This document shows positions 1 to 33,045 of a stretch of 64,000 nucleotides of DNA, piece after piece. Position 1 is the first letter of the stretch, and each line of letters begins with the position of its first letter. Made by a program: the position numbers and the translations under genes. The notes below the pieces were generated by a model. It searched no databases and was not told the DNA's origin. It was given only the letters and a program-made list of their open reading frames with translations. This DNA comes from Paraburkholderia phenazinium (GTDB taxonomy: Bacteria > Pseudomonadota > Gammaproteobacteria > Burkholderiales > Burkholderiaceae), in NCBI RefSeq assembly GCF_900141745.1, contig NZ_FSRM01000001.1, positions 3,224,001 to 3,288,000 on the forward strand. The letters are read 5' to 3'.

Positions 1-2
1 AA

Positions 3-3000
3 GATGCCGGCTACGATCCGGCGACGATCGCTGGCGCCGTCGGCGTATTCGCCGGCACCTCGATGAACACCTACTTCCTCAAGCATGTGCTGACGGACCG
101 TGGCGTCATCGACGAGTTCACGAGCCAGTTCCAGATCGGCGAGTATCAAAAGCTGGTCGGGGCCGGTGACTTCGTCGCCACGCGCACCGCGTACAAGCTG
201 GGTCTCAAGGGACCAGCTCTCTCAGTGCAGACGGCCTGCTCGACCTCGCTGACTGCAATTGGTCTTGCCGTAGAGAACCTGCGCTCGGGCCGCTGTGACA
301 TGGCATTGGCCGGCGGTGTGTCAATCACCTTCCCGCAAAAGCGCGGCTATTACTATGAAGAAGGCGGGATGGGCGCGCCCGACGGCGTGTGCCGCCCGTT
401 CGATGCCGAGGCCAAGGGCACGGTATTCGGCAGCGGCGCTGGGGTTGTCCTGCTGAAACGTCTCGAGGACGCGATCGCCGACGAGGATCCGATCTATGCC
501 GTGATCCGTGGTGTCGGCATCAACAACGACGGCTCCGACAAGGTCGGCTTCACGGCGCCTAGCGTCGATGCCCAGGCTCGCGCTATTGCGATCGCGCACG
601 CCGAAGCCGGTGTCGATGCAGCCTCCATTGGCTATGTCGAGGCTCATGGTACGGCGACGCCGCTCGGCGACCCGATCGAATTCGCCGGCCTCGTGCAGGC
701 ATTTCGTCTCGGCGGCGTCGAAGGCGGCCAGTTCTGCGCCCTTGGCTCGGCGAAGGCCAATGTCGGCCACCTCGACGCGGCCGCCGGCGTGACGGGCTTC
801 ATCGCTGCATCGCTCGCACTGCGCGACCGGGTCTTGCCGCCTCTCCTGCATTTCCGTTCAGCCAACCTGGGCATCGATGTCGCTAACAGCCCCTTCTTTT
901 TCAACGTCGGCGCGAACGCCTGGGCTGCCGGCGCGACGCCGCGTCGCGCCGGCGTGAGTTCGTTCGGCGTCGGCGGCACGAATGTGCACGTGGTGCTGGA
1001 AGAAGCGCCGCGCCGTGTCGACGCCGCATGTGAGCCGCAAGAAAAGCCACCAGAAGCGCTGCAGATTTTGCCGCTCTCGGCACGGAGCGCGGCAGCGCTC
1101 GAACGGGCCAAGGCCAATCTCGCCGGGCATCTGGCCGCCAACCCCGGCGTCTCGCTCACAGACGTGGCCGCGACGCTGCAAACGGGTCGCCGTGACTTCG
1201 CGCATCGCGCCGTCGTCATCGCGGACAGTGTCGACCAGGCTCAGGCCCGGCTCGTCAAAGGAGCGATCGAAGCACAGGCCCCTCAAGCCACGCCTCCGGT
1301 TGTGTTCATGTTTCCTGGCCAGGGCGCGCAGTACCCGGGCATGGGACAAGCGCTCTATCGCACCGAGCCGGTCTATCGCCAGTGGATCGACAAGGGTGCC
1401 GAAGCGTTGGCTCCGCATGTGGGCCTGGATATCCGCACCCTGCTGTTGAGCGACTCCCCGGAAGGCGACGATACCCCGCATCCCATCCGTTCGACGCTCT
1501 ACGCGCAGCCGGCCCTGTTCCTGGTCGAATACGCGCTGGCGCAACTGTGGATGTCGCGCGGCATCAAGCCGACGGCCATGATCGGCCATAGCATCGGCGA
1601 ACTGGTCGCGGCCTGCGTGGCCGAGGCGATCACCTTCGAGGATGCGCTGTACCTGATCGCCAGGCGCGGTGCGCTCATGCAGTCGGCCGAACCGGGCGCG
1701 ATGCTGGTGGTACGCCTGTCCGAGACGGACCTCGTCCCCCTTCTGCCCGCCGACGTCGATCTGGCCGCAGTCAATGCGCCATCGCTCAGCGTCGTAGCGG
1801 GCCCCTTCGCCGCGATCGAGGCTTTCGAAGCCACGCTGAAAGCGGGCGATATCGACCATCGACGGCTGCATACGTCTCATGCCTTCCACTCGCGCATGAT
1901 GTCCGGTGTGGTGGACGATCTCGCGAAGCTCGCGGACAGTCTTTCTTTCGCAAGGCCGAAGATCCCGTACGTGTCCTCGGTGACCGGACAGTGGGCGTCG
2001 ATGGATCAGCCGGTGCCGGGACATTACTGGGCCAGTCATTGCCGCAATGTCGTGCGCTTCAGCGATGCACTGGCTACGGTGACCGCCGAGGGCAAACCGC
2101 TGCTTCTCGAAATCGGTCCCGGCCGGACACTGTCGACCTTCGTCATGCAGGGGTTGCCCAAGGACCGGCATCTGGGCGCGATTGCCTCGCTGCCTGATTT
2201 CGCCATGCGCGACCGTGAACTCCCAGTCCTCGCCGAAGCGACCGGGCGACTGTGGCTGAACGGGGTCACGCCGAACTGGCAAACCGTCCGGGCCGAAGCC
2301 GGCCACCGCATTTCGCTACCGACCTATCCGTTCGAACCGGAACGGCATTGGATCGATGCCCCTGCAACCGCTTCTTCACATCACACGACGATGCCCGCCG
2401 CGGCGCTCGCCGCTCCAGCTTCGTCCGACGTCATAACCGACATTCCTCAGACCGCCATGGCCCATACTGACCAAATCGACCGCAAACCGCGTCTCATTGC
2501 CGAACTGGCATCACTGCTCGCCGAGATGTCCGGCGAGGCGCCGGATACGTCCAATCCGGACGTGACCTTCTGGGATCTCGGTTACGACTCTCTGTTCATG
2601 GGACAGGTGTCCCGCCAGCTTCGCCGCCGCTACGATGTCACGATCAGCTTCCGGCAGATCATGAGCGACTACCCGACGCTGCCCGCCCTGGCGCAATTCC
2701 TCGATGGCGCATTGCCGCCTGACCCGGAACCGGAGGTCGCGCCGGTCGTGGCCGAGGCCGCGCCTGCCGCAGTGGCAGTTGCCGTTGCAGCGCCGAGCGC
2801 GCCCAGCGTGGCCGCACCGGTCACTGTTGTGGCAGCGGCCGCTCCGTTTGCGGCTACCCCGGCCACGGGCGACATTCAATCGGTGTTCCGCGATCAGCTC
2901 GCGGCGATGCAGTCGCTGATGTCGCGTCAGCTCGACCTGCTGCAAGGCGCACCGGCAGCCGTCCAGCAGCCTGTGGCAGCGACTGTTGTGGCCACGCAGG

Positions 3001-6000
3001 CCCCTGCCGCGCCGGCACCGGCCGTGGCTCCAAGGCCAGCCGCAGTGCCCGCGCGGGCCGCTGCCCCCGAGATCAAGTTCGAGGAGAACCGGCCGACGCG
3101 CTTCACCGCGTACAAGCCGGGCGCATCCAGCTCGGCGCAGATCACGGATGCGCAGACGGCGTTCATCGCCGACCTGTCGGTCCGCTACTCGGCCAAAACA
3201 GCCACCTCCAAAGCTCGTACGCAGACCTATCGTGCAGTGCTCGCCGATCCGCGCACCGCGAGCGGCTTCCGCGAGGAATGGAAGGAACTCGTCTACCCGA
3301 TCGTCGCCCAGCGTTCCAAAGGTTCGAAGATCTGGGACGTCGACGGCAATGAATATATCGACGTGGTCAACGGCTACGGCCAGACCGCGTTTGGCCATAC
3401 GCCGGATTTCGTGGTCGAAGCGGTGAACGCGCAGATGGCGGAAGGCTTCGCCATCGGACCGCAGTCGCCGCTTGCGGGCGAGGTCGCCCAGATGTTCGCC
3501 GAGATGACCGGCCATGAGCGCGTCACCTTCTGCAATACCGGCTCGGAAGCCGTGATGGCAGCAATGCGTCTCGCGCGTACCGTGACGGGCAAGGAGAAGG
3601 TCGTCTGCTTCGACGGCGACTATCACGGCCAGTTCGACGAAGTGCTCGTCAAGCCGGGCAGCGAAGCCGGCGTGCCGCGTGCGTTCCCGCTCGCACCCGG
3701 CATCCCGCAGAGCTCCGTGGGCAACATGGTCGTGCTGCCCTACGCCAGGTCCGAAAGCCTCGAGTGGATCAAGGCCAACATCGACGATATCGCCGCGGTC
3801 CTGATCGAGCCTGTGCAGTCGCGCCATCCCAATCTGCGGCCGAAGGAATTCGTTCAGCAATTGCGCGAGGTCACCGCGGCCAACGAGTCCGCGCTGATCG
3901 TCGACGAGGTTGTGACGGGTTTTCGCGTGCACCCGGCCGGCATGCAAGGCTACTGGGGCATCAAGGGCGACATGGCGACGTACGGCAAGGTGGTCGGCGG
4001 CGGTCTGCCCGTCGGCGTGCTCGCCGGCAGCGCCCAGTACATGGATGCGCTCGACGGCGGCCAGTGGCAATTCGGCGACGCGTCGGTTCCCGAAGTCCCG
4101 CCGACCTTCTTCGCAGGCACCTTCGTGCGCCACCCGGTCGTGCTGGCCGCGATGAAAGCCGTTCTCCTGCATCTCAAGGAGGCCGGTCCGGCGCTGCAGG
4201 AATCGCTCGGTGCACGCATGGAGGGCCTCGTACAGCGCATCAACACGCATCTGGAAAAAGTCGGCATCACCACGCGGGCGGAATCCTTCTCGAGCTGGTT
4301 CTATATCAGCTTCGCAGGCGAGGATCGTCTGGGCAGTCTGTTCTATGCCTACATGCGTTACCTTGGCGTGCACATCATGGAAGGCTTCCCCTGCTTCCTG
4401 ACCACCAGCCATTCGGATGAGGACATTCGCAAGATCGGCGATGCCTTCGTCGAAAGCATTCGCGCACTCCAGAGCGTCGGCATTCTCGGAAGCACGCAGG
4501 AAGCACCGTCTCTCACGGCTCCGGTCGAAGCGAAGCCACTCACGCAGTCGCCGCTCACCGAGCCGCAGAAAGAGATCTGGATGTCGGCCCAGCTCGGCCA
4601 CGAAGCATCGCTCGCGTTCAATGAGTCCTTCACGCTCGAGCTCATGGGCAACCTGAACGAAGCGGCTTTCGAACGCGCCTTCGCGGCGACGATTGCCCGT
4701 CACGATGCGTTGCGCGCTCACTTCTCACGCGTCGGCGATACGATGTTCGTGGATGCAGCGACGACCGTGCCACTGGAAAGGATCGACTTCTCCGGCCACG
4801 CCGATGCAGCCGGCGATCTCAAGGCCCTCGTCGATGCGGAAGCGCGTGAGGTGTTCGATCTCACCCGCGCTCCGCTCGTGCGTGCCGCGTTGATCCGTCT
4901 GGAAAGCCAGAAGTGGGCGTTCGTGTTCACCGCGCACCACATCGTCTGCGACGGCTGGTCGATCAACATCGTCCTGCGCGATCTGCAAGCGCTCTACTCG
5001 GCCGAAATTTCAGGCCAAGCGCCTGAGCTCGACGAAGTGCAGAGCTTTCTCGCCTTTGCCAAGGATCAGGACGAGGCCGGCATCGACAAGGAGACGCGCG
5101 AGTTCTGGCTGAACCTTCATCGCGAGCCCGCTCCGCAACTCGACTTGCCCGGCGACCGCGCACGCCCAGAGGTGAAGACCTTCAACGGTGCATCGACGAC
5201 ACGTCATCTGGGTGCCGATCTCCTCAAGCAGGTCAAAACCGCTGCGTCGAAGCAGGGCTGCTCGCTGTTTGCCGCCCTGTTCGGCGCCGCTCAAGTACTG
5301 TTCGGCCGTCTGTCCGGCAGGGACGATGTCGTCATCGCCGCACCGATGGCAGGTCAGTCGCAAGCCGGCGAAGCGCTGCTGGTCGGGCACTGCGTCAACT
5401 TCCTGCCATTGCGCGTCAGGTTCGATGGCGACAAGCCTTTCGCCGCGCACATGAAGGCGGTGCGCGATCACCTCTTCGACGCCGGCGACCGGCAGAACTA
5501 CACCTACGGCGCGCTGGTGCGCGAGCTCGGTATCAAGCGTGACTTCAACCGGCTTCCGCTGACCGATCTGCAGTTCAATCTGGAGAAGGTCGACGGGCAG
5601 CTCGACATGGCCGGCGTCACCACGCGCTTTGCGCCGAACGCAAAGGCCTATAGCAACTTCGATCTGTTCCTGAACGTCATCGAATCGGCGCAGGGACTTC
5701 GTCTGGATTGCGACTTCAACACCGACGTCTATGACGAGGCGACGATCCAGCGCTGGCTCGGCCACTACGAAACCTTGCTGACGGCGATCGCCCACGATCC
5801 CGAAACGCCGGTTGCGGCACTGCCTCTGCTCAACGATGGCGAAATCCGCCACCTGCGCGACGAGTTGAACGCTTCCGGCCGTGCCTACGATCTCTCGCAG
5901 ACGACCGCCGCGCTGATCGCCGCGCAGGCCCGCCAGACCCCCGACGCCGCAGCCGTGTCGGACGAGACGACGCGCCTGACGTATGGCGCGCTCGATGCAC

Positions 6001-7799
6001 GCGCCAGCCAGATCGCCCGCAGACTCGTGGCGGCGGGTATCGCACCGCGCGGACGCATCGCCATCGCAATGGACCGCACGGCGATGACCGTGGCCGCCAT
6101 GATCGGCGTGTGGCGTGCCGGTTGCGCCTACGTGCCGCTCGACATGACGATGCCGCCTGCGCGCCTGCGCCAGATTCTCGACGGTGCCGGCATTGCCGCC
6201 ATCCTCAGCGATAGCGCAAGCCGCACCGTGCTGGAAGCGGGCGAACATCGCGTGCTGGAACTCGAGGCTCTGCTTGCGCAACGCGACGACGCGGCCGTGT
6301 CTTTGCCCCTCGTGCCGGATACCGATTCGGCCTACGTGATCTTCACGTCGGGCTCGACCGGCCAGCCCAAGGGCGTGGATATTCCCCATCGCGGCCTGAG
6401 CAACTTCCTGTTGTCGATGAAGGAAGCGCCAGGCTTCACGGCTGGCGACCGCATCATCGCGGTTACTACCTTCTCCTTCGATATTTCCGGTCTCGAACTG
6501 TTCCTGCCGCTCATCGTCGGTGGACAGACCTTCATTGCAGGTCATGAGGAAGTACGCACCGGCTTCGAGCTGGTGACCCGGCTGAAGGAGCAGAACGCCA
6601 CCGCGCTTCAGGCAACCCCGTCGCTCTGGCGCATGCTGCTGGAAGCGGGCTTCAAGGCACCGGAGAGCTTCAAGATCCTGTGCGGCGGTGAAGGCTTGCC
6701 GCGCGATCTCGCCGACGACCTGCTGGCGACCGGCGCGCAGGTTTGGAACCTCTACGGTCCGACCGAAACGACGATCTGGTCTGCGGCCTCGCGTGTCGTT
6801 GCCAACGGACCGGTGGTGATCGGCGCCCCGCTCGCCAATACGCAACTGCATGTGCTGACAGACGACCTGCGTCTGGCGCCGCAAGGTGTCAGCGGCGAAC
6901 TGTGGATCGGCGGTGAAGGCCTCGCAAAGGGCTATTTCAACCGTACCGATCTCACCGACGCCGCCTTCAGGCAGGTGGCCATCGAGGGCGCTGCGCCGAG
7001 CCGGCTCTACCGCACGGGCGACCTCGCAAAACGGCTCGCCGACGGCTCGTTGCAACACCTCGGCCGTCGCGACCAGCAGATCAAGCTGCGCGGCTTCCGC
7101 ATCGAGATCGAGGATATCGAAGCTGCCCTGCGCAAGGCGCCTGGCGTCGCTGCGGCAGCCGTGGCCCTGCATACGGTCAACGGCAGCCCTCGCCTCGCGG
7201 CCTACATCGTCGAGACGGCCTCGGACAAGACCGACCAGGGCGCGGTCGCAGCACACGTTGCCGCGCAACTGCCGGCCTACATGGTGCCGACTCTGTGGAT
7301 GACGCTCGACGCGCTGCCGCAGACCAGCAACGGCAAGCTCGACCGTAAAGCGCTGCCGGTACCGACGGCGGATATGGTGGCGGCGCCTGTACGTCAATCA
7401 CACGCTGCGCTCAAGGTGGTTCAGCCTGCCTCCACGCCAGTGGAACCAGCCGCGATGGAACCGGCGGAGCCCGAACTCATCGTGGTCAAACCAGCAGCGA
7501 TGACGCCGACCCAGGCTACCCTCGCGGCGATCTGGGCAGACGTGCTCGGCCTGCAGCATGTCGGCATCGACCAGCAGTTCTTCAGCCTCGGCGCAGACAG
7601 CCTGCAGCTGTTCCGCATCGTCGCGCGAATGAACGAGCGCGGACTGGGCGTGGATGCCCGTCAGCTCATGAAGAATGTCACGATCGCCGAATTGGCGGCA
7701 AGCCTTGACGGCACGCAGGAGAACGAATCGATGGAGGCTCCTGCGGTGAACCGGCCATCGATCCTGAACTTCAAGCGCAAGAACGCGGGGGGGATCTGA
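3..7799 (+). CDS. Hybrid PKS-NRPS synthase, KS-AT-ACP-AMT-C-A-PCP (5' partial)
   Basis: The reading frame is open from the first bases and already inside a ketosynthase, so the start lies upstream. Numbering from base 3, domains run as follows. KS (Cys79 in QTACSTSL, then VEAHGTATPLGD and KANVGHLDAAAG). AT about 430-720 (GHSIG; HAFHS, the malonyl-CoA signature). ACP (Ser863 in GYDSLF). An Ala/Pro/Val-rich linker. A class III PLP aminotransferase about 1090-1500 (DEVVTGFR; Lys1329). C about 1515-1950 (intact HHIVCDG). A about 1970-2460. A PCP with LGADSL. No KR, DH or ER is present, so the beta-keto product would be transaminated to a beta-amino acyl chain, as in iturin/mycosubtilin synthases. 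Aligning core A4-A5 with GrsA gives D-I-L-Q-L-G-L-I-W-K, the glycine code as I remember it. The lipid-loading part is probably upstream of the window. Confidence 0.93.
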   Translation, partial: DAGYDPATIAGAVGVFAGTSMNTYFLKHVLTDRGVIDEFTSQFQIGEYQKLVGAGDFVATRTAYKLGLKGPALSVQTACSTSLTAIGLAVENLRSGRCDMALAGGVSITFPQKRGYYYEEGGMGAPDGVCRPFDAEAKGTVFGSGAGVVLLKRLEDAIADEDPIYAVIRGVGINNDGSDKVGFTAPSVDAQARAIAIAHAEAGVDAASIGYVEAHGTATPLGDPIEFAGLVQAFRLGGVEGGQFCALGSAKANVGHLDAAAGVTGFIAASLALRDRVLPPLLHFRSANLGIDVANSPFFFNVGANAWAAGATPRRAGVSSFGVGGTNVHVVLEEAPRRVDAACEPQEKPPEALQILPLSARSAAALERAKANLAGHLAANPGVSLTDVAATLQTGRRDFAHRAVVIADSVDQAQARLVKGAIEAQAPQATPPVVFMFPGQGAQYPGMGQALYRTEPVYRQWIDKGAEALAPHVGLDIRTLLLSDSPEGDDTPHPIRSTLYAQPALFLVEYALAQLWMSRGIKPTAMIGHSIGELVAACVAEAITFEDALYLIARRGALMQSAEPGAMLVVRLSETDLVPLLPADVDLAAVNAPSLSVVAGPFAAIEAFEATLKAGDIDHRRLHTSHAFHSRMMSGVVDDLAKLADSLSFARPKIPYVSSVTGQWASMDQPVPGHYWASHCRNVVRFSDALATVTAEGKPLLLEIGPGRTLSTFVMQGLPKDRHLGAIASLPDFAMRDRELPVLAEATGRLWLNGVTPNWQTVRAEAGHRISLPTYPFEPERHWIDAPATASSHHTTMPAAALAAPASSDVITDIPQTAMAHTDQIDRKPRLIAELASLLAEMSGEAPDTSNPDVTFWDLGYDSLFMGQVSRQLRRRYDVTISFRQIMSDYPTLPALAQFLDGALPPDPEPEVAPVVAEAAPAAVAVAVAAPSAPSVAAPVTVVAAAAPFAATPATGDIQSVFRDQLAAMQSLMSRQLDLLQGAPAAVQQPVAATVVATQAPAAPAPAVAPRPAAVPARAAAPEIKFEENRPTRFTAYKPGASSSAQITDAQTAFIADLSVRYSAKTATSKARTQTYRAVLADPRTASGFREEWKELVYPIVAQRSKGSKIWDVDGNEYIDVVNGYGQTAFGHTPDFVVEAVNAQMAEGFAIGPQSPLAGEVAQMFAEMTGHERVTFCNTGSEAVMAAMRLARTVTGKEKVVCFDGDYHGQFDEVLVKPGSEAGVPRAFPLAPGIPQSSVGNMVVLPYARSESLEWIKANIDDIAAVLIEPVQSRHPNLRPKEFVQQLREVTAANESALIVDEVVTGFRVHPAGMQGYWGIKGDMATYGKVVGGGLPVGVLAGSAQYMDALDGGQWQFGDASVPEVPPTFFAGTFVRHPVVLAAMKAVLLHLKEAGPALQESLGARMEGLVQRINTHLEKVGITTRAESFSSWFYISFAGEDRLGSLFYAYMRYLGVHIMEGFPCFLTTSHSDEDIRKIGDAFVESIRALQSVGILGSTQEAPSLTAPVEAKPLTQSPLTEPQKEIWMSAQLGHEASLAFNESFTLELMGNLNEAAFERAFAATIARHDALRAHFSRVGDTMFVDAATTVPLERIDFSGHADAAGDLKALVDAEAREVFDLTRAPLVRAALIRLESQKWAFVFTAHHIVCDGWSINIVLRDLQALYSAEISGQAPELDEVQSFLAFAKDQDEAGIDKETREFWLNLHREPAPQLDLPGDRARPEVKTFNGASTTRHLGADLLKQVKTAASKQGCSLFAALFGAAQVLFGRLSGRDDVVIAAPMAGQSQAGEALLVGHCVNFLPLRVRFDGDKPFAAHMKAVRDHLFDAGDRQNYTYGALVRELGIKRDFNRLPLTDLQFNLEKVDGQLDMAGVTTRFAPNAKAYSNFDLFLNVIESAQGLRLDCDFNTDVYDEATIQRWLGHYETLLTAIAHDPETPVAALPLLNDGEIRHLRDELNASGRAYDLSQTTAALIAAQARQTPDAAAVSDETTRLTYGALDARASQIARRLVAAGIAPRGRIAIAMDRTAMTVAAMIGVWRAGCAYVPLDMTMPPARLRQILDGAGIAAILSDSASRTVLEAGEHRVLELEALLAQRDDAAVSLPLVPDTDSAYVIFTSGSTGQPKGVDIPHRGLSNFLLSMKEAPGFTAGDRIIAVTTFSFDISGLELFLPLIVGGQTFIAGHEEVRTGFELVTRLKEQNATALQATPSLWRMLLEAGFKAPESFKILCGGEGLPRDLADDLLATGAQVWNLYGPTETTIWSAASRVVANGPVVIGAPLANTQLHVLTDDLRLAPQGVSGELWIGGEGLAKGYFNRTDLTDAAFRQVAIEGAAPSRLYRTGDLAKRLADGSLQHLGRRDQQIKLRGFRIEIEDIEAALRKAPGVAAAAVALHTVNGSPRLAAYIVETASDKTDQGAVAAHVAAQLPAYMVPTLWMTLDALPQTSNGKLDRKALPVPTADMVAAPVRQSHAALKVVQPASTPVEPAAMEPAEPELIVVKPAAMTPTQATLAAIWADVLGLQHVGIDQQFFSLGADSLQLFRIVARMNERGLGVDARQLMKNVTIAELAASLDGTQENESMEAPAVNRPSILNFKRKNAGGI

Positions 7800-7802
7800 G
7801 CA

Positions 7803-10133
7803 ATGAACGGGATAGCCTTAAGGATCGCCGAGACCGACGAGAGCGAAGCCAGCTTCGCCTTGTTCCCGGCGACCGCCTGCCAGGTGCGGTTCTGGCATGA
7901 ACAGAACGCATCGCCGAAGGCGTCCGCGCTCAATATCGCCTTCCGGCTGCAGTTGTCCGGGCCGCTGAATGCCGCGAGGATCGAACGCGTACTCAGCGAA
8001 CTGGTTGCACGGCACGAGATATTACGCACTGGCTTCCTGATGACGGGTGCGGGGCTGCAGCAGCAGGTCTGGAGCTTCGCGCCCTTCCAGCTCGAAGTGG
8101 TCGACCTTGCCGGTTTCGACGAGAAGGCTGCTCTTGCCGAGGACGAACGTGTCGGCAGACAGCAGGCTCGCACGCCTTTCGCATTGTCGTCCCCCTCCTT
8201 CTTCCGCGCCGTGTGGTTGCCACGGTCGAACACGCAGGGCGAATTGCAGCTGACCTTCCACTCGCTTGTGATGGACGGCTGGTCCTTCGCAATCCTCACG
8301 CGCGAGCTAGTGGAAGGCCTTGCCGCATTGCATGCCGGCCATGACGCCGAATTTCCCGAAGTCGACCTTCATCATGGCGACTACGCGTTGTGGAAGGAAG
8401 CGTTCCTGACCAGCGGCGCGCTCGATCGCGCCCGCACCCATTGGCGTCAGGAGCTTCAGGGTTTCAGCCGCTTCGACGTTCCTGGCGATCGTCCCCGGCC
8501 GCAGGAGCGGCGCTTCCAGGGCGTCATTCGCTCCATTCTGTTGCCCGCTGCGCTGAGCGATCGCCTGATAGCGGCCGCCAAGGCCCAGGGCGTGACGCTG
8601 TTCAGCGTGGCGGCTGCGGGCCTCGCGATGGCGCTGCAAACGGCGGCCGGCCAGACCAGGGTAGCGATCAGCACGCAGATGTCGGTGCGCGATCAACAGG
8701 AACTCGAGGGCGTCGTCGGACCGCTCATCAACACGGTGATCCTGCGCCTCGATGTTCCGGAAGGCAGCACCGTTGCCTCCATAATCGCGCAGTGTGGCGC
8801 CAAGCTTAGCGACGCCATCGAACATCTGCACTTGCCGTTCGAAGAGATGATGCAGATGGCCGGCGAGGTTTCCGGCGTAGATCGCCCGCCGCTTTGCTCG
8901 GTGAACTTCGCCCTGCAGCAAAGCTTCGTCGGCATGGGCGACGAGGTTCGCCGCCAGGATTTCGCCGCGACGACCTCGCCCTCGTTCAACGCGGGCGCGC
9001 TCTACGATCTCAACTTCTTTATGGTGCGGCGCCCGGATGGCTGGCGCATCTCCTGCGAAGGCGACACGGACCTCTACGACGTCGAGACGATCGACCGTCA
9101 TCTGGCGAAGTGGCGTGAGGTGCTGGAAACCGTTGAAATCGTCACGCAGCGCTCGCCAGCACCCGCACCCGCGAAAGAGACGGTGAAACTCACGGCAGGC
9201 GTCGGCGCCAGCGGTTTCATGAGTCAGGCCGAGATCGAGGCAAAAGTGCGCAACATCGTGCGCTTCAACGAGAACGCGCCGGGCACGCCGATCATCGTGC
9301 TCAACAACACGGCCGTATTCTACGAACTGGCCCGGCAGATTGGCACCGACCGGCCCATCATCGACATTCCGATGGTGCCCGAAGGGCCGCCGCGCGAGTT
9401 CCCGCCGCGGGCCTTCCAGGATATCGCCGCGGACGCCGTACGCCTGATCAGGCTGGCCCGGCCAACAGGTCCCTACATCCTCATGGGACATTGCGTGCTG
9501 GGTTCGCTATCGCTGGAGGCGGCCCATCAGCTGCGGCGCGAGGGCGAAACGGTGGAGCTCGTCGTTCTCAACGATTCATGGTGCCCGGGTTATCGCGAGT
9601 CGATGCCCTGGTACGATCAGAAATTGCGCAAGATGCAGGTGCGTGCGGACAACATTCCGCGCGACTTCCGCAAGGCCATGCGCGGCGAAACCTCCATGGT
9701 CACCTTCCTCAAGCAGTATCGGATCGTGCGCTGGCTCGGCATCGCGGACCTTGCTCTCAGGCTCGGCCTCATCAAGGGTAATGCGTCGGAGCATATGGTT
9801 TCTGAGAATCGCTGGTACATCGAGTATTTGCTGGCTCAGCAGGCCCGCTACCGTCCGGCACCCTATGACGGCGACGTCCAGATCTTCCGCAGTGGTCAGG
9901 TGCTCAAAGGGCGTCTGTTCGCGTGGGACCTGGGATGGCAACCGGTGGTCGGGAACAGGCTGGTCGTCACCGAGGTGCCGGGCATGCACGATCAGATTTT
10001 CCGCCCCGCCGGCTCTGCGGTGATCGGCAAGCAATTGCGTGAACGCCTGGGCGGAATCGGAGCGAACAGGGTTGCAGCCAGTTCGGGTGAGCAGGACGCC
10101 CCGGCAGCATTGCTGAGCCGTGCCGAGGCCTAG
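7803..10133 (+). CDS. NRPS releasing protein: condensation domain plus thioesterase
   Basis: A 776-residue protein begins three bases after the synthase stop and is surely co-transcribed. Residues about 15-450 are a condensation-family domain. Residues about 480-760 are an alpha/beta-hydrolase thioesterase that would release the chain. There is no A or PCP domain. The condensation motif is HSLVMDG (His153, Ser154, Asp158): the second, catalytic His of HHxxxDG is replaced by Ser. The thioesterase elbow reads GHCVLG, with Cys564 where Ser is usual and Leu at nucleophile+2. An Asp (LNDSW) and a late His (GMHDQIF) complete a plausible triad. The C domain may be structural or acceptor-only, while the thioesterase could hydrolyse, cyclise or transfer the beta-amino-acyl-glycine product. 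Family assignment is firm; the chemistry is inference. Confidence 0.9.
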   Translation: MNGIALRIAETDESEASFALFPATACQVRFWHEQNASPKASALNIAFRLQLSGPLNAARIERVLSELVARHEILRTGFLMTGAGLQQQVWSFAPFQLEVVDLAGFDEKAALAEDERVGRQQARTPFALSSPSFFRAVWLPRSNTQGELQLTFHSLVMDGWSFAILTRELVEGLAALHAGHDAEFPEVDLHHGDYALWKEAFLTSGALDRARTHWRQELQGFSRFDVPGDRPRPQERRFQGVIRSILLPAALSDRLIAAAKAQGVTLFSVAAAGLAMALQTAAGQTRVAISTQMSVRDQQELEGVVGPLINTVILRLDVPEGSTVASIIAQCGAKLSDAIEHLHLPFEEMMQMAGEVSGVDRPPLCSVNFALQQSFVGMGDEVRRQDFAATTSPSFNAGALYDLNFFMVRRPDGWRISCEGDTDLYDVETIDRHLAKWREVLETVEIVTQRSPAPAPAKETVKLTAGVGASGFMSQAEIEAKVRNIVRFNENAPGTPIIVLNNTAVFYELARQIGTDRPIIDIPMVPEGPPREFPPRAFQDIAADAVRLIRLARPTGPYILMGHCVLGSLSLEAAHQLRREGETVELVVLNDSWCPGYRESMPWYDQKLRKMQVRADNIPRDFRKAMRGETSMVTFLKQYRIVRWLGIADLALRLGLIKGNASEHMVSENRWYIEYLLAQQARYRPAPYDGDVQIFRSGQVLKGRLFAWDLGWQPVVGNRLVVTEVPGMHDQIFRPAGSAVIGKQLRERLGGIGANRVAASSGEQDAPAALLSRAEA

Positions 10134-10201
10134 ATCAGAAGTGGCTTCAAAAATAGTCCTTTGCGCCAGAACGGGACGTGACTCGACAAGGCGGCTGGGT
10201 T

Positions 10202-11353
10202 ATGTCCCGTTTGCGTAGAGTGCTATTGGCAGCGTTTCTGGGTGCACTGACCGTGGCCGGCCTGATCTTTGTCACGCTCGCCATGCCTTACCTGTTCCGC
10301 CGGCCGCCCACCGCCCTTGCTGCCGGCTTGCCGATGCCGTCTGACAGGATACGACTTGCAGTGCTCGGCGATTCCGATAGCCAGTCCTACCATGACACGC
10401 GGATGTTGGGAGACCCGAACATGCGAGGCGGCCCCCGGCGCGCAACCACCTGGCAGTGGACCGAAGTCCTCGCCCGGCTGCGGGGCAACCAGATCGACCT
10501 CGGCGACTGGGGGACGTGGGGCACCGGCAAGTATCGCGCCTATTTCGACGAGGCTTTCGGTGCTCTCGCCCGGGCGCCTCGCAAGGACGACTATCGCTAC
10601 AATTTTGCCGTCAGCGGCGCTACCTGCAATCAACTGATGGGCCATCCGTTGCGCGAGACGCCCCGCCTCGTCGACCTGATGGACACCGAGCCACAAGCCT
10701 GGCGAGGCGGCATCGTGCTGATCCGGATTGGCATCAACGATCTCGGTGCGCAAGACATCCTCGACGAGCTCTCCCGTGATCCGAATGCTTCGCGCCCCGG
10801 GGCCGCGATCAACGCCTGCATTGGCGCAATCGCCGAGAGCGTCGCTCTGATCCGCAGAAAACACCCGGATACGAATATCGTGCTGGTGGGTGTGCTCAGC
10901 AATGCGGACTGGTCGATCAAGTTCGACAATTGGCAATCGGCCGGACAGATAGCCAATATCGACGCAGGCCTTGATCGCTTCGACAACGGCTTGCGCAAGT
11001 TGGCCGCGGCGGATCGACATGTCCACTTTCTCGATGATCGCGCCTGGTTCAGGAGTCTGTGGGGCACCCGCGACGACCAGGGCCGTCCGCTGTACAAGAC
11101 CGTGCATCTGTCGCCTGGCTGGGCAATCACCAATGCATCCGGCGATGATCCGCACAACGCTGTCCTTGCCGACGGACATGCCGGCGTAGTCTGGAATACC
11201 CTCTGGACGCAACACCTTGTCACTTCCCTGAACACTGCGTTCGGATTGCATCTCAAACCGGTCACGGATGCCGAGGTGTTCGGCTTTCTGCAGCCGAGCT
11301 TCACTGCAAGCACGCGCGCAGACGCGCCACTACTCACACCTTTAACCAAATAG
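10202..11353 (+). CDS. Membrane-anchored SGNH/GDSL-type hydrolase
   Basis: About 383 residues. An N-terminal hydrophobic segment (residues about 5-30, after MSRLRRVL) acts as a signal anchor, so the catalytic part should be periplasmic. SGNH blocks are visible: GDSDS near residue 60 (nucleophile Ser), a Gly in SGATCN, GINDLG (block III Asn) and LADGHAG near the C-terminus (Asp-x-His). Such enzymes are esterases, lipases or O-acetyl transferases/esterases. ATG at 10202 is preferred over an in-frame GTG at 10178 because AAGGCGG lies just before it and it opens directly into the signal segment. It follows the synthase genes by under 70 bases in the same direction, so a role in modifying or releasing the product is plausible but unproven. 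It could equally serve the neighbouring polysaccharide locus. Confidence 0.8.
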   Translation: MSRLRRVLLAAFLGALTVAGLIFVTLAMPYLFRRPPTALAAGLPMPSDRIRLAVLGDSDSQSYHDTRMLGDPNMRGGPRRATTWQWTEVLARLRGNQIDLGDWGTWGTGKYRAYFDEAFGALARAPRKDDYRYNFAVSGATCNQLMGHPLRETPRLVDLMDTEPQAWRGGIVLIRIGINDLGAQDILDELSRDPNASRPGAAINACIGAIAESVALIRRKHPDTNIVLVGVLSNADWSIKFDNWQSAGQIANIDAGLDRFDNGLRKLAAADRHVHFLDDRAWFRSLWGTRDDQGRPLYKTVHLSPGWAITNASGDDPHNAVLADGHAGVVWNTLWTQHLVTSLNTAFGLHLKPVTDAEVFGFLQPSFTASTRADAPLLTPLTK

Positions 11354-11550
11354 CATGACATGAGCGACGGCGCACATTCGCCGGGGCAAACACGGACCAC
11401 ACTTCAGGCCATATGAGCCAGTTGCAACAAAGCGGTTTATTCGAAACCCCTGAAATAGTACCGTTTTATAGATAAAGATTTTAATACCAGTGCCGCCAAG
11501 CGAGCGGCTGGATGAGACGGCTTCCTGATCAGACTGCAAGGAGCGATCGC

Positions 11551-12465
11551 ATGGACATGTCCACGGTTCCCCCAGTACTTGAAGCGACATTGCCTGACAA
11601 ATGGATCGACTCGGACTCTTCGCTGTTCCGCGAGAATTTCGAGCGGAAGAGCTTCGAGGTCGCCCACCATCTGGCGGGCCATCCGCTGTTTCAACTCCCT
11701 CAATTGATGGGCCTGGCGGAGCGAACCCTAAAGACGCGCCCATTTGATCTCTACTACGACATGGGCAACGTCGCACCTGGTCAAAAATGGCGCGATACGA
11801 ATCGCGCGTTCTCACCACTGAACGCGCTAACCCAGCTGGAAGAGTCAGACGCCTGGTTCATTTTCAGAAGTGCGCAACGAGATCCGCTCTATACCGAGCT
11901 GTACAGACAAGCGATGGAAGAGGTCAAGGATCTGGTCGGACGCCACATCGAACCCCAGATCAGCAGGGAAGACATCATCATCTTCGTGACGTCGCCGAAG
12001 CGGGTGACGGCCTATCACATCGATCGTGAATGCAATTTCATTCTTCAGCTCCAAGGGGAAAAGGATCTGTACGTCTTCGATCGTCAAGACCGGCAAATTC
12101 TTCCAGAGGAGGAAATCGAGGAATTCTGGGCGGTGGACAACAACGCGCCGAACTACAGACCCGAACTGCAGGACCGCGCGCGCCTGTACAAACTGGCTCC
12201 CGGAAATGGCGTTCACGTTCCTGTCAACTGTCCCCACTGGTTGAAGAACGCCGACAACATCTCTGTGACTTTGAGCGTGAACTTCCAGTTTATCGACTCC
12301 GTGCGAGCGGATATCTATCGGGCCAACCATCACCTCAGGAAGCTTGGAATCAATCCCACTCCACCCGGACAAAGCCCGGTGAAGGATCGCGCCAAGGCTA
12401 TGGCGTTTGGGACAGCGAAGGCCGTTCGCGAAGCTGCCAGGTCGGCTTTGCGCAGAGGCGGTTAG
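11551..12465 (+). CDS. Cupin-8/JmjC-like protein, putative Fe(II)/2-oxoglutarate oxygenase (copy 1)
   Basis: A 304-residue protein with the cupin-8/JmjC core. The HxD pair is His156/Asp158 (TAYHIDRECNF). The distal His is at about 222 in APGNGVHVPVNCPHW, after a Phe/Gln-rich strand (FILQLQGEKDLYVFD). These would be the three iron ligands of a 2-oxoglutarate-dependent hydroxylase. Start ATG 11551 is chosen because AAGGAG sits seven bases upstream; an in-frame start 39 bases earlier has no such site. The next gene is a clear paralog, sharing the ligand spacing and the C-terminal pattern NHxLRKLGxxPxPPG. Substrate is unknown: an amino-acid or fatty-acyl part of the upstream synthase product, or a polysaccharide, are candidates. 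Confidence 0.78.
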   Translation: MDMSTVPPVLEATLPDKWIDSDSSLFRENFERKSFEVAHHLAGHPLFQLPQLMGLAERTLKTRPFDLYYDMGNVAPGQKWRDTNRAFSPLNALTQLEESDAWFIFRSAQRDPLYTELYRQAMEEVKDLVGRHIEPQISREDIIIFVTSPKRVTAYHIDRECNFILQLQGEKDLYVFDRQDRQILPEEEIEEFWAVDNNAPNYRPELQDRARLYKLAPGNGVHVPVNCPHWLKNADNISVTLSVNFQFIDSVRADIYRANHHLRKLGINPTPPGQSPVKDRAKAMAFGTAKAVREAARSALRRGG

Positions 12466-12549
12466 TGCCGCAGAACGCGGAGTTGGATGAATGGGCATCG
12501 GTTTCTGCCGCGTTTGAGAAGTTGTTTCACCTAGTCCGGATTGACAATA

Positions 12550-13440
12550 ATGCTACCTTCTGCCGATGCTCTACTGACCGTTGATCCCGCTGTCTACAAG
12601 ACCGCGTTCAACAATACGCCGTTCAGTTTCAAACACTATCTGCATCAGCTGCCGATGTTCCAGCCGGAGGCATTGACGGAGCTGGCAAAGAAGTATCGTG
12701 AGAAACCCGCGGATTATTACGTCTCCAACTCGGCCCCCACGCCAGGGACCAGGTTCTTCGATGTCAAGGCAAAACCGTCGAAACCGGATGAAGCGCTCGC
12801 CCAGCTTGCCATGGGGCCGACGCGCGTGCTTTTGAAGCGGCCCGAAAATTATGACGCCGGCTTTCGAGAACTGCTGGACACACTGTTTGCAAGAGTGGCC
12901 GAACTGCGCGGCGGTCTCAACGGTGAAAAGATCGTGCGGCTCGAATCGGCCATCTTCATCAGCTCCGCCTCCTCGACCACACCGTTTCATTTCGATCCGG
13001 AAATCAATCACTTCTTTCAGATCGAGGGCGGCAAGCAATACCACGTCTATCGTCCGAGTGCGGTTCGGGAAGATGAACTCGAGGATTTCTACGTGCAGGG
13101 CAAAATAGAGATCGGCCAGGTGGATCTCGCCACGCGCGACAAGAGCCTCGAACACGTCTTCGACCTCGTGCCCGGTAATGGCTTTCATCAGCCGCAGGAC
13201 GCGCCCCATTGGGTTCAAACCGGCGCGGAACGTAGCGTGTCCTATGCGTTCGTCTACGAGACCGACGCGAGCCGGGCCCGTGGCCGTATCTTTGCCGCCA
13301 ATCACTTCCTGCGCAAACTCGGTGTCACTCCCCAGCCGCCCGGTACGAACCCCGGCACCGACAATGCGAAGTCATCGGTGATGAAGGTTGTCGTTCCCGT
13401 GCGCAGGCGTATCGTTCGCAATCTGGAGCGGGTCCGCTAA
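12550..13440 (+). CDS. Cupin-8/JmjC-like protein, putative Fe(II)/2-oxoglutarate oxygenase (copy 2)
   Basis: A 296-residue paralog of the preceding gene. It has HFD (His147/Asp149, PFHFDPEINHF) and the distal His at about 213 (VPGNGFHQPQDAPHW), so all three presumed iron ligands are kept. The Fe(II) oxygenase fold is supported by the motif PFHFD followed by the strand FFQIEGGKQYHVY. ATG 12550 is preferred over TTG 12541, though neither has a strong ribosome-binding site. It lies 84 bases after copy 1 and is the last plus-strand gene before the convergent glycosyltransferase pair, so it probably closes the natural-product operon. Function beyond a likely hydroxylase is not known. Confidence 0.77.
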   Translation: MLPSADALLTVDPAVYKTAFNNTPFSFKHYLHQLPMFQPEALTELAKKYREKPADYYVSNSAPTPGTRFFDVKAKPSKPDEALAQLAMGPTRVLLKRPENYDAGFRELLDTLFARVAELRGGLNGEKIVRLESAIFISSASSTTPFHFDPEINHFFQIEGGKQYHVYRPSAVREDELEDFYVQGKIEIGQVDLATRDKSLEHVFDLVPGNGFHQPQDAPHWVQTGAERSVSYAFVYETDASRARGRIFAANHFLRKLGVTPQPPGTNPGTDNAKSSVMKVVVPVRRRIVRNLERVR

Positions 13441-14550: not shown

Positions 14551-14583
14551 TGTTTACTCCAAATATCTCTGTCTTCAGGCAAG

Positions 14584-15690: not shown

Positions 15691-16027
15691 AGCCTTTCCG
15701 TACGCTCACGCGTGAATGTTCTTCGCAATAGTGCGCACGATGTTGCGGACGACCGGATGTGACGACATCACGCAGGACCAAGCAGTTTTCTCAAGAAGAC
15801 AGGTTATCGGCGCACAAAACGCGGCACTGCTGCCTACCGCACGCAACTGCAGCACGCAACTGCAGCATGCAACATGCATGCCGCTGCGGCACGCAAACGC
15901 CCGTCACCGCGTTGCCCCGCGGTGCAGGCGAATTTTAATAATGCAAAGCCCACCCCACCGTGCGCCGACACACAAACGCTCCGGGCCGCCTCGGCCAGAA
16001 TGTGCAAGTCGCGCATTGGAGTACCAC
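15691..16027. other. Intergenic spacer between divergent glycosyltransferase and flippase genes
   Basis: No credible gene. It must hold promoters for both directions. Toward the flippase, TTGCCC (15912-15917), a 16-base gap and TTTAAT (15934-15939) form a weak promoter candidate with a long leader. It also contains the 13-base tandem repeat at 15839-15877. Confidence 0.5.
15839..15877. repeat. Tandem 13-bp direct repeat (two exact copies plus a degenerate third)
   Basis: GCACGCAACTGCA occurs twice back to back (15839-15851 and 15852-15864), followed by the related GCATGCAACATGC. It sits in the divergent spacer between a glycosyltransferase and the flippase gene. Tandem sites of this kind can be regulator binding sites or a slippage-prone tract. 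Confidence 0.7.
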
Positions 16028-17512
16028 ATGACAGCTAGACCCAGCCTCAAACGCAGCGCCACGCTCAACTTCATCGGCGGAATCTTGCCCATGTTCGTCG
16101 CGCTGGTGACGACGCCCATTTATCTGCACTACATCGGCGCAGCACGCTACGGTGTGCTCGCCATCGTCTGGATGGTGCAGGGCTATTTCGGCTTTCTCGA
16201 TCTGGGGCTGTCATCCGCGACGTCCAACCGCATCGCGCAACTCGGCGAAGAGCCGCACCGCGAGCGCGAGGCCGTCCTGTGGACCGCGTTGATCCTCAAC
16301 GCCGCACTGGGTCTCGCGGGCGGCGTCGCACTGTATGGGCTCATGCACGTTCTGCTCTCGTACTTCGACATGGGTCCGGACCTGCGTAACGAGTTGTTGC
16401 CCGCGCTGCCCTGCGTGGCCTGCCTCGTGCCGCTCTCGAACCTCATTTCCGTTTTCAACGGCGCACTGGTGGGGCGCGAGCGTTTTGGCACGCTCAACGT
16501 CGTCACGCTTCCGGTCACCCTGATGTACCAGCTCGTGCCGCTTGGGGCGGCGCTTCTCTTCGGCCCGAACCTGCGGTATCTGGTGTACGGCACGCTAGTG
16601 GCCGGGATCGCGGCGCTGCTGGTGACCGCGTTCGCGGTGTGGCGCGTCTTTCCGCTGCGCCTCGCCGCCGGCCCGCGCCGCGACCTGGTCGGCAAACTCT
16701 TCTCGTACGGCGCCTGGATCAGCGTGACCAGCCTCGCGCAGCCTCTGCTGGAGACCGCCGACCGCCTCATGATCGGCCACGCGCTCGGACCGCAGGCGGT
16801 CACCTACTATCAGGTGCCTTTCAATCTCGCCGGCCGTGTGCGGATCTTTCCCTCGGTCATTGTCCGGACGCTATTTCCGCGCCTCTCTGCGCTCGACGCC
16901 GCGAGCGCCGCAGCGCTCTCCTCCAGTTCGATACGGGGCCTCGCCGCCGCACTCACGCCGATGACCGTGTTCGGCATATTCCTGATGCATCCGTTTCTCT
17001 CGCTGTGGGTGGGCCAGGACTTCGCCGCACGGGCCGCGTCGGTGGGTGAAACGATTCTCGTCGGCATCTGGCTCACCTCGATTGCATCGCTCGCTGCCTG
17101 TCACCTGCAGGCAATCGGCAAGCCCGGCATCGTCGCGCGTTTCCAGGCCTACGAAATGTTGCCGTTCTTCGCCCTGCTGTGGTGGATGCTGCAACACTTC
17201 GGCGTACTGGGCGCTGCGCTCGCATGGAGCGCGCGCTGCCTGCTCGATGGCGTGCTGCTGCTCCATGCCGCGCGCCTCGATGCCCGGCCAACGCGCATGC
17301 TGGCCGTGCCGGCGCTGATCATCGCGCTCGCGTATGTCGGCACACTCGTCTTCGCTCCACTCACGTGGCCCGCTATCGTGGTCTGGCTCGGCACGACAGC
17401 CGTTGCGCTTGCATGGAGCGCGCGCACCGAACCACGGGCCTACGCGCGTTTGCTCGAACTGGTCGCGTCGATGCGCAACTACACGCGCCGCTGGGCGCAA
17501 AGTAGCCAATGA
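16028..17512 (+). CDS. Wzx-type lipid-linked oligosaccharide flippase
   Basis: A 494-residue polytopic membrane protein with about 12-14 hydrophobic helices and no soluble domain, of the polysaccharide_synt/MVF (Wzx) superfamily. It begins SLKRSATLNFIGGILPMFVALVTTPIYLHYIGAARYG, quoted here in part as the signature: an amphipathic start, a first helix, then a Tyr/Gly-rich loop. It would flip the undecaprenyl-linked repeat unit to the periplasmic face for polymerisation. The frame is open far upstream, but ATG 16028 has GGAG six bases before it and starts at the conserved N-terminus. The following acyltransferase begins seven bases after its stop, so the two are co-transcribed. Confidence 0.88.
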   Translation: MTARPSLKRSATLNFIGGILPMFVALVTTPIYLHYIGAARYGVLAIVWMVQGYFGFLDLGLSSATSNRIAQLGEEPHREREAVLWTALILNAALGLAGGVALYGLMHVLLSYFDMGPDLRNELLPALPCVACLVPLSNLISVFNGALVGRERFGTLNVVTLPVTLMYQLVPLGAALLFGPNLRYLVYGTLVAGIAALLVTAFAVWRVFPLRLAAGPRRDLVGKLFSYGAWISVTSLAQPLLETADRLMIGHALGPQAVTYYQVPFNLAGRVRIFPSVIVRTLFPRLSALDAASAAALSSSSIRGLAAALTPMTVFGIFLMHPFLSLWVGQDFAARAASVGETILVGIWLTSIASLAACHLQAIGKPGIVARFQAYEMLPFFALLWWMLQHFGVLGAALAWSARCLLDGVLLLHAARLDARPTRMLAVPALIIALAYVGTLVFAPLTWPAIVVWLGTTAVALAWSARTEPRAYARLLELVASMRNYTRRWAQSSQ

Positions 17513-17519
17513 GCCGCCC

Positions 17520-21059: not shown

Positions 21060-21980
21060 ATGGAAACTGTGAAAATAAGCCCCGACAAAGGCTCCTCTCC
21101 CGGCAAACGATCAAGAATCTGCCTGATCTTCGCCACGCGGGGCCGCGCCGAACTCCTTGAGCATGTCATCGCCTTCGTCGATTTGCAGACTGTCAAGCCG
21201 GACCTGACCATTGTCTCCTGCGTGTCGGATGAGGATGTGGGCAACGTGGCCAGCCACCCCGGAATACTCGTGATCAAGGGGAAGCCCGGCCTCCCCGCGC
21301 AACGTAACAATGCGTTGAACCATGTGCCGGACGGCTTCGATGTCGTGATCTTTCTGGACGATGATTTCCTGATGCATGGCACATGGATTCAGGAAGTCCT
21401 CAAGGTCATGGACAGCGACCCCTCGATTGCCTGCGTGACTGGAACCGTCATCGCGGATGGCATCCATGGACCGGGTTATTCTTTCGAAGAGGGACGGGCA
21501 ATCCTCGCCAGGACGAATGAAATTCCGGAGAGGTTATCCATCACTTCGACGGGCGGTCCCTATGGATGCAATATGGCATTCCGGGCGCGCAGCATTGCAG
21601 GCCTTCGCTTCGACGAGCGCCTGGTTCTCTATGGCTGGCAGGAGGACCGCGACTTTGGAGGCCAGATCTGGAATCTGGGCAGCCGCGTGGTTCGCATCAA
21701 TACTGCGCTCGGGGTGCACCTGGGCGTCAAGCGCGGAAGAGTATCTGGGCGCAAGTTCGGCTATTCGCAGGTTATCAATCCGCTCTATCTGGTGAGAAAG
21801 AATACGATGCCGTTGCGCGATGCGCTTGACCATGTTCTGCGTAACGTGGGCAGCAATATTGTGCGAAGCGTTGCGCCGGAGCCTTGGGTCGACCGTCGGG
21901 GCCGTCTGAGCGGCAATCTGATCGGCCTGTGGGACTTTCTGCGCGGAAGGCTGACGCCCGAACGCGCGGCCAAGCTGTAA
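21060..21980 (+). CDS. GT2-like (GT-A fold) glycosyltransferase
   Basis: A 306-residue protein with GT-A features: ICLIFATRGR at the N-terminus, the metal-binding FLDDDF near residue 100, and YGWQEDRDFGGQ, which resembles the ED-containing acceptor motif of family 2 enzymes. It would add a sugar from a nucleotide donor to the repeat unit. ATG 21060 is supported by AGGAACTGAGG immediately upstream. It is a lone plus-strand gene between two minus-strand genes and converges on the polymerase gene, with a strong hairpin spanning the junction. Confidence 0.85.
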   Translation: METVKISPDKGSSPGKRSRICLIFATRGRAELLEHVIAFVDLQTVKPDLTIVSCVSDEDVGNVASHPGILVIKGKPGLPAQRNNALNHVPDGFDVVIFLDDDFLMHGTWIQEVLKVMDSDPSIACVTGTVIADGIHGPGYSFEEGRAILARTNEIPERLSITSTGGPYGCNMAFRARSIAGLRFDERLVLYGWQEDRDFGGQIWNLGSRVVRINTALGVHLGVKRGRVSGRKFGYSQVINPLYLVRKNTMPLRDALDHVLRNVGSNIVRSVAPEPWVDRRGRLSGNLIGLWDFLRGRLTPERAAKL

Positions 21981-21987
21981 CTCAGAC

Positions 21988-22021
21988 GCGCCGGACCAAA
22001 AGGTCCTAAAAGGTCCGGCGC
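21988..22021. terminator. Hairpin between convergent GT2 and polymerase genes
   Basis: GCGCCGGACC pairs perfectly with GGTCCGGCGC across a 14-base loop, just after the GT2 stop and overlapping the stop codon of the convergent polymerase gene. The loop contains AAAAGGTCC, repeated at the right arm. It is probably a two-way terminator, though T-runs are poor. Confidence 0.6.
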
Positions 22022-31336: not shown

Positions 31337-31508
31337 CGCTACTCCCTTCCGTCGCGCGCCCAAGCCACTGCCCCCGCTGAGACGCACACACCGCTATGTA
31401 GATTTTTTTATGCTCTAGTCCGGGACGGCTACCGCCTTCATCGCCGACGATACCCGGCCCCCCAAAATCAACCCGCCATATCACCTTCAACCAACCCGGC
31501 CCGCTGTT

Positions 31509-32627: not shown

Positions 32628-33045
32628 TTCGGTTACCCCAAACCTTAACGTTCTCCGCACCGAGCGTTTCGGCCTCGTCGCGACACATGGTTACTGCGCT
32701 TGCCATCCGGATGGCCATAGACCAGCGACGGAAAGCTCGCTTCCTGTATCGCTAGCGGCGAGACGCGCCCTATCGTCCACGCCGACGTATCCCATCGACC
32801 GCACCTTGTTGATCCCGAACGGCAGCTTGCCCCGGGGTTCGGCTCTTCCACGCCGTTCAGCGCGGAGCATGCACACTCGTTCACGGGTACTCCGTGCCGG
32901 TGCGCGTCACCGTTTTATCCACCGGTTAAGCACTCTTTCAGTCCACAGTAATAAGCTACGTCCTCGACCGGATACATTCCGTGCGGCATCACACCAACCG
33001 CACGGTTTCATCGGCGACGACGGAAAATCGTCCAAAGAAGCAGCG

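Follow-up and report, generated by a model that had tools for sequence, protein, structure and literature searches.

What is a short natural-product assembly line doing among the genes of an exopolysaccharide (EPS) pathway? This question is raised by a 64,000-nucleotide stretch of Paraburkholderia phenazinium DNA (G000:C1:3224001-3288000 of an 8.3-Mb, two-contig genome; hereafter the window), which opens with a hybrid of nonribosomal peptide synthetase (NRPS) and polyketide synthase (PKS) followed by a protein composed of a condensation (C) and a thioesterase (TE) domain. Comparing this locus with its relatives established the architecture of the line, its substrate pockets, the state of its active sites, its EPS neighborhood and the genes with which it co-occurs. 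We tentatively propose, with somewhat less than an even chance of being right, that this short hybrid line is part of one EPS pathway and makes an aminoacyl-type group for that exopolysaccharide, to which the group would be covalently attached.

A preliminary description of the window had read a two-gene line with the order ketosynthase (KS), acyltransferase (AT), acyl carrier protein (ACP), aminotransferase (AMT), C, adenylation (A) and peptidyl carrier protein (PCP), without any reductive domain and followed by the C-TE protein. Pfam matches reproduced this order and the two genes stand, but the first of them is cut by the window: the open frame of 2598 amino acids at window positions 3-7799 (+ strand) begins within the KS domain, while the full gene (L004:7846-17799) starts 2154 bases further upstream and encodes 3317 amino acids with matches, in order, to AMP-binding, PP-binding, KS, AT, PP-binding, class-III aminotransferase, Condensation, AMP-binding and PP-binding, i.e., A-PCP-KS-AT-ACP-AMT-C-A(Gly)-PCP. 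No ketoreductase, dehydratase or enoylreductase family is found among the Pfam matches of this protein. Since the matches of the window genes reach E-values down to 5e-88 and every active site of the first protein (KS, AT, carrier, C and A) is intact, these domains are not chance matches, and those previously listed are confirmed as real. The second gene starts 3 bases past the stop of the synthetase gene, and a phosphopantetheinyl transferase (PPTase) gene lies 0.3 kb upstream of the latter on the same strand. We considered whether the line could be the middle of a longer NRPS, which is ruled out by its A-PCP start, the PPTase gene next upstream and the absence of any Condensation match on the contig beyond its own two, so the line is indeed as short as first described. 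A separate and larger NRPS region resides on the second contig (G000:C2:1553818-1594784), more than 2 Mb from any gene for the polysaccharide export protein Wza.

The loading module upstream of the window bears directly on the product, which had been predicted as a beta-amino fatty acid joined to glycine, with an acyl-ligase/ACP loading module to be looked for upstream. What lies there instead is an A-PCP module with an NRPS-type A domain that has Asp235 and Lys517 in place and a valine-like pocket, DALWLGGTFK, as mapped by alignment onto the second A domain with coincidence of ten of ten columns. The best 60 of the 193 solved relatives of this domain at E 1e-10 carry, almost without exception, names of NRPS or amino-acid ligases, with the A domains of linear gramicidin, tyrocidine and surfactin synthetases as the closest ones. 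A code that differs at one position, DALWIGGTFK, appears in PMC12283262 among the commonest Leu/Ile/Val codes and is discussed there with Val-type sequences; as it is listed third, after Leu and Ile, we read it as Val. Because of this pocket, the presence of Asp235 and Lys517 and the amino-acid-activating relatives, the starter unit should be an amino acid and not a fatty acid, and a beta-amino fatty acid was rejected as product on the pocket and relatives of the loading domain. Starter pockets vary greatly, with 28 kinds among the 83 that could be read, mostly hydrophobic, and all 83 begin with D and end with K. Relatives from Rhizobiales and Rhodobacterales carry the starter A-PCP either as a separate gene or fused.

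Downstream of the starter, the AT carries an HAFH motif that we take to be of the malonyl type, and the best solved relative of the AMT is the aminotransferase of mycosubtilin synthase A (E 1e-120), in line with the iturin-type function first assigned to it. An alignment recovered the same letters for the pocket of the second A domain, DILQLGLIWK, as had been given before, and the glycine code read from it agrees with the designation of DILQLGMIWK, the form found in most relatives, as a Gly code in PMC12283262. Conservation was counted across 88 loci (L004 and L006-L092), consisting of the window, seven plasmid loci and the best 80 of the 192 relatives that six aligned C-TE proteins, used as the query, retrieved from the genome_contigs collection; one broken locus was left out of the synthetase alignment, which holds 87 sequences. 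The glycine pocket, DILQLG[LM][IV]WK, is kept in 83 of the 88 loci, the exceptions being two one-residue variants, a Variovorax variant and two loci with DTIQITLIWK. Likewise, the AMT lysine is present in 87/87 synthetases, the TSHAFHS motif of the AT in 84/87 and the histidine of the first C domain in 86/87. The conserved glycine end and the variable head would fit a constant linker with variable decoration. Given a malonyl-type AT, a mycosubtilin-like AMT and an amino-acid starter, the line is predicted to produce a beta,gamma-diamino acid linked to glycine instead of a beta-amino fatty acid; with valine loaded, the chain would here be 3,4-diamino-5-methylhexanoyl-Gly.

The line ends in an unusual manner. 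Its second C domain lacks the catalytic second histidine of the canonical HHxxxDG motif, which is replaced by Q, S or T in 80/88 loci, and its TE has cysteine in place of the canonical serine nucleophile, set within GxCVxG in 86/88 loci (of the other two, one has no TE and one is broken), while the TE aspartate is kept in 85/88 and the TE histidine in 80/88. The preliminary description was silent on both features as well as on the EPS cluster, which lies beyond the piece that it covered. Sequence matches of the TE in the PDB are other NRPS and PKS thioesterases such as 4zxh and NocB, and the named close relatives of the C-TE protein come from Paraburkholderia, Caballeronia and Burkholderia sp. 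strains, with Paraburkholderia phymatum among the species in which a relative is listed. A pattern search detected a PCP motif in the C-TE proteins of 61/88 loci, Variovorax included, and none in those of the window, its close relatives and two alphaproteobacterial assemblies. In four Rhodobacterales loci (L007, L008, L009 and L012) and in Tianweitania (L067), the TE histidine is missing at the aligned place. All but one of these five loci retain both histidines (HH) in the last C domain, as though activity had passed from one half of the C-TE protein to the other. A degenerate C domain and a cysteine TE without a further A domain point to release by transfer or hydrolysis and not to another peptide bond.

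The assembly line sits in a Wzx/Wzy-type EPS cluster in which Wza, Wzc, an initiating sugar transferase, a flippase and glycosyltransferases are found together, with a manC-type gene upstream of the line. This association is well supported. Searches at E 1e-60 found the C-TE protein in 33 of 144 genomes of the same genus. For 32 of them, the closest Wza gene lies downstream at a distance of 13.2-27.4 kb and is read from the opposite strand; the contig of the 33rd is, at 9.7 kb, too short to show it. Outside the genus, ten of the 12 genomes compared encode Wza at 10-26 kb from the C-TE gene. As a control, we merged Condensation matches less than 20 kb apart in 12 genomes of few contigs, yielding 22 NRPS loci: all 12 C-TE loci are 17-28 kb from Wza (measured from the C domains), compared to none of the ten others within 30 kb (the nearest being at 172 kb, two lying on contigs without Wza, and five of the 12 genomes having no other locus), which rules out a chance neighborhood of EPS genes. 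Wza like that of the window is present in 79 of the 144 genus genomes and is therefore not by itself specific to the line. We further examined seven plasmid loci whose records carry annotation, namely six of 19 records in which the C-TE protein is covered to at least 80% (two of them from one species) plus one from Variovorax. These loci, from Rhizobium (2), Loktanella (2), Rhodobacter, Jannaschia and Variovorax, all encode EPS assembly or export proteins and a PPTase in differing gene orders. When 399 genomes were drawn evenly from the order, with at most two candidates scored in the genomes listed, none but the window's own yielded the C-TE protein at E 1e-60, which suggests that the protein is rare in the order outside its genus.

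Two further genes follow the line across the genus. An SGNH-fold protein encoded directly downstream was detected (E 1e-30) in 32 of the 144 genus genomes, every one of which also has C-TE, while the 111 genomes that lack C-TE gave no match; of the 33 C-TE genomes, one is without the SGNH protein and another has it reduced to a 100-residue match (G009:C54:290037-290336) beside an intact C-TE gene. The PPTase occurs in 34 genus genomes, i.e., the 33 with C-TE and a fragmented one (86% complete) whose EPS contig ends early. A neighboring EPS glycosyltransferase is found in 52 genus genomes, 19 of which have no C-TE. In 18 of these 19, no synthetase is present in the 9-36-kb stretches beside the glycosyltransferase, where related sugar machinery is found; for two of the 18 genomes, whose stretches (9 and 15 kb) are too short to reach the C-TE position, the absence comes from the genome search. 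In three of 20 sister stretches, we observed a protein with a weak match of 22-23% that covers 16-18% of the synthetase. Since the glycosyltransferase occurs without the synthetase in sister genomes, the line appears to be an optional accessory of an EPS system, with a PPTase and an SGNH partner of its own.

The SGNH protein is the best candidate to act on the group outside the cytoplasm. Its structure could be modeled only at low confidence (mean pLDDT 65, pTM 0.68), and the model matches, among the best 50, SGNH esterases that include a family 3 carbohydrate esterase and sialate O-acetylesterases, a weak point in favor of an EPS-borne group; a profile search of solved structures found no relative. 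In L017 (Burkholderia sp. Ac-20365) and L033 (Paraburkholderia sp. C35), the two loci with the DTIQITLIWK pocket, alanine replaces the asparagine of what we take to be the GxND block of this protein, and a joint change of product and partner is possible. The 10-kb flanks of these two loci contain no cupin-type gene, though a longer stretch of the L033 genome (L140) has a distant cupin-type match (31-32%).

The company of the line differs between the classes, as seen in the 10-kb downstream flanks of 56 alphaproteobacterial and 24 Burkholderiales loci. The alphaproteobacterial flanks encode a GINT1_N protein (52), a PPTase (51), a DegT aminotransferase (44), a GMC oxidoreductase (42), Wzx (37) and a TIGR04325 methyltransferase (33), and those of Burkholderiales the SGNH protein (21) and cupin-type proteins (18); of the three Burkholderiales loci without SGNH, one is cut by the locus end, one holds the remnant and one is the 9.7-kb contig. 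In L006, a protein with a GINT1_N domain and an unrecognized N-terminal half (28295-29896) follows a C-PCP-TE protein, and a search of solved structures with the GINT1_N protein gave no useful match. On the Variovorax paradoxus plasmid (L011), A-PCP-KS-AT-ACP-AMT is followed by C-A-PCP-C-PCP without TE (14278-26528), and then by a PPTase and two alpha/beta-hydrolase genes next to EPS genes. A midpoint-rooted tree of 28 synthetases places the Paraburkholderia group with a Caulobacterales assembly (support 1.0).

From these elements, we infer the chemistry and the release step as follows. The starter A-PCP would load a branched hydrophobic amino acid, valine-like in the window, KS-AT-ACP would add one malonyl unit without reduction, the AMT would turn the beta-keto group into an amine to yield a beta,gamma-diamino acyl chain, and C-A-PCP would join glycine on. 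The chain might then move to the TE cysteine, with the C domain of the C-TE protein as docking or gating domain, and be released onto a nucleophile, which we propose to be an amino or hydroxyl group, either on the EPS repeat unit or on a carrier of that unit. The SGNH protein, probably membrane-anchored, may complete, edit or trim the group across the membrane, and the cupin-type proteins could hydroxylate it. With slightly greater reserve, we extend this proposal to a class of EPS pathways in alpha- and beta-rhizobia and their relatives, for which we found no name and in which a PKS-NRPS, a PPTase and a cysteine thioesterase (plus the SGNH protein in Paraburkholderia) might covalently place a cationic beta,gamma-diamino-acyl-glycine group on the polysaccharide, the head amino acid differing from lineage to lineage and the glycine linker being constant.

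Several observations weigh against an EPS-borne group. The TE could merely hydrolyze or cyclize the chain, no plain chain-to-sugar transfer enzyme was identified, and a free product secreted beside the EPS would predict the same neighborhood. The fold matches of the SGNH protein are hydrolytic esterases, so removal of a group would fit as well as transfer, and polymer O-acyltransferases like DltD and AlgJ are not among the best 50; moreover, SGNH is found in 0/56 alphaproteobacterial flanks and the proposed partner is thus not universal. In most alphaproteobacterial relatives, C and TE are separated by a PCP for whose loading there is no A domain, a feature that our model leaves unexplained. 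Finally, Chelativorans sp. J32 and Rhizobium tubonense, two of the 12 distant genomes, have no Wza on the C-TE contig, and neither does the contig of a second C-TE-like copy in a metagenome-assembled Caulobacterales genome (G152:C97:4197-5579).

Nearly as likely as an EPS group is a free small molecule that is merely co-regulated with EPS and biofilm genes, e.g., a diamino-acyl-Gly peptide, a diazepanedione if cyclized, or an aminostatine-like inhibitor or signal. Lines that end in a TE usually release free products, AMT lines are known for free lipopeptides and no dedicated chain-to-sugar transferase is seen among the genes scanned, but the same scan from synthetase to Wza, which did not cover every open reading frame, showed no peptide-type transporter either, and the linkage to EPS export holds in very divergent relatives with rearranged gene order while other NRPS loci have none. 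The EPS neighborhood would also fit with a group placed at the beginning or end of the polysaccharide, as a cap, as a primer or bound to a lipid carrier, instead of decorating each repeat, and so would the optional nature of the line relative to the conserved glycosyltransferases; terminal and repeating positions look alike in sequence, a WbaP-type initiating enzyme is already there, and we consider this variant unlikely. Most improbable is an iturin-like line joining a beta-amino fatty acid to glycine, for which the shared KS-AT-ACP-AMT-C-A-PCP order and the closeness of the AMT to mycosubtilin synthase A would speak. Of what marks such lines, the AMT behind KS-AT-ACP is present, but an N-terminal fatty-acyl ligase and ACP that load a fatty acid are not, nor are several downstream NRPS modules giving a cyclic heptapeptide, as only one C-A-PCP and the C-TE protein follow; the loading A domain with Asp235/Lys517, valine-type pocket and amino-acid-activating solved relatives argues against it, as does the separate-gene starter of one relative, which is likewise an A-PCP.

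The features of the locus are compiled in the table below. Three genes on the same strand come after the C-TE gene, for the SGNH protein and two cupin-type proteins, with 44, 158 and 75 bases between consecutive genes, and the first of the cupin-type proteins is possibly an Fe(II)/2-oxoglutarate hydroxylase. The membrane protein at 22006-23556 has no Pfam or NCBIfam match and is putatively labeled Wzy-like, and the glycosyltransferase at 24825-25952 shares 83-92% identity with its counterparts in the other 32 genus genomes that have C-TE. A protein encoded at 26153-27643 resembles a glycoside hydrolase by eye without any family match and is also present in two sister EPS clusters that lack the synthetase.

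Table. Features of the assembly line and the EPS cluster, in window positions.
Feature	Position	Strand	Details
Hybrid NRPS-PKS	1..7799	+	C-terminal 2598 of 3317 aa; Pfam matches
KS	3..854	+	N-terminal part before window; Cys798, His934, His975 of full protein
AT	1302..2162	+	GHSIG and HAFH motif
ACP	2478..2681	+	Ser1582; limits approximate
Class-III aminotransferase (AMT)	3294..4256	+	Lys2048; closest solved relative mycosubtilin synthase A, 6kfu
First C domain	4548..5855	+	Intact HHIVCDG
A domain	5919..7356	+	Pocket DILQLGLIWK (Gly)
PCP	7518..7700	+	Ser3252
C-TE protein	7803..10133	+	776 aa; Condensation and Thioesterase matches
Second C domain	7866..9134	+	HSLVMDG, Ser replaces catalytic second His
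TE	9312..10043	+	Cys564 for Ser; Asp591 and His729 conserved
SGNH (GDSL) esterase-fold protein	10178..11353	+	One predicted N-terminal membrane segment
Cupin_8-like protein	11512..12465	+	HID motif; Pfam match below cut-off
Second Cupin_8-like protein	12541..13440	+	HFD motif; Pfam match below cut-off
Two GT4-type glycosyltransferases	13474-14550, 14584-15690	-	
Wzx-type flippase	15716..17512	+	Polysacc_synt
Acyltransferase-3	17334-18626	+	
AT3-SGNH acyltransferase	18632-20698	-	
GT2-type glycosyltransferase	21060..21980	+	
Wzy-like membrane protein	22006..23556	-	11 predicted transmembrane segments
Two GT4-type glycosyltransferases	23620-24837, 24825-25952	-	
Wzc-type protein	27720..30026	-	Chain-length/tyrosine kinase protein
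Wza-type polysaccharide export protein	30026..31387	-	
WbaP-type transferase	31509..32660	-	Undecaprenyl-phosphate sugar phosphotransferase

If the group indeed ends up on the EPS, a modular natural-product assembly line would serve as a tailoring tool for a bacterial surface polymer and place positive charges on the biofilm polysaccharides of alpha- and beta-rhizobia alike. Even without attachment, the line represents a family of NRPS-PKS with conserved glycine end, variable head, degenerate C domain and cysteine thioesterase that is present in 33/144 genomes of the genus, and the window alone would have led to misprediction of its likely product as a lipopeptide. In open-licence literature, no title or beginning of an abstract was found to describe an NRPS-PKS inside such an EPS cluster, which leaves unproven that none has been published.

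Among known systems, the closest parallel to the synthetase is the iturin-type mycosubtilin synthase A (MycA), whose AMT is the closest solved relative (6kfu, E 1e-120) and which shares the lack of reductive domains and what we take to be its domain order, KS-AT-ACP-AMT-C-A-PCP. Unlike MycA, the line described here is loaded with an amino acid by A-PCP instead of an acyl ligase, adds a single further amino acid (Gly), ends in a C-TE protein with a degenerate C domain and is embedded in an EPS cluster. Its TE resembles those of the sulfazecin and obafluorin NRPS, which also use a cysteine nucleophile, in having cysteine at the GxCxG position of an NRPS-type TE, but no beta-lactam or beta-lactone chemistry is indicated. 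Dlt-type D-alanylation, one of several carrier-protein-based acyl decorations of surface polymers, likewise combines a carrier-bound aminoacyl group with a membrane-anchored SGNH-type protein near polymer machinery. No homology to DltB/DltD emerged, as the profile search with the SGNH protein gave no solved relative and DltD is not among the best 50 matches of its low-confidence model; a multi-domain PKS-NRPS would here build a new acyl chain. With the Wzx/Wzy clusters of Burkholderiaceae such as the cepacian bce genes, the cluster has Wza, Wzc, a WbaP-type transferase, a flippase, a Wzy-like protein, glycosyltransferases and acyltransferases in common, to which a PPTase, the NRPS-PKS line and its own SGNH protein are added. 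A paper on the cepacian cluster of P. phymatum (PMC7378592) uses none of the words nonribosomal, NRPS and polyketide in its main text. Domains and EPS machinery are hence of kinds already known, and it is their combination, an amino-acid-loaded AMT line inside an EPS cluster in alpha- as well as betaproteobacteria, that did not turn up in the open-licence literature searched.

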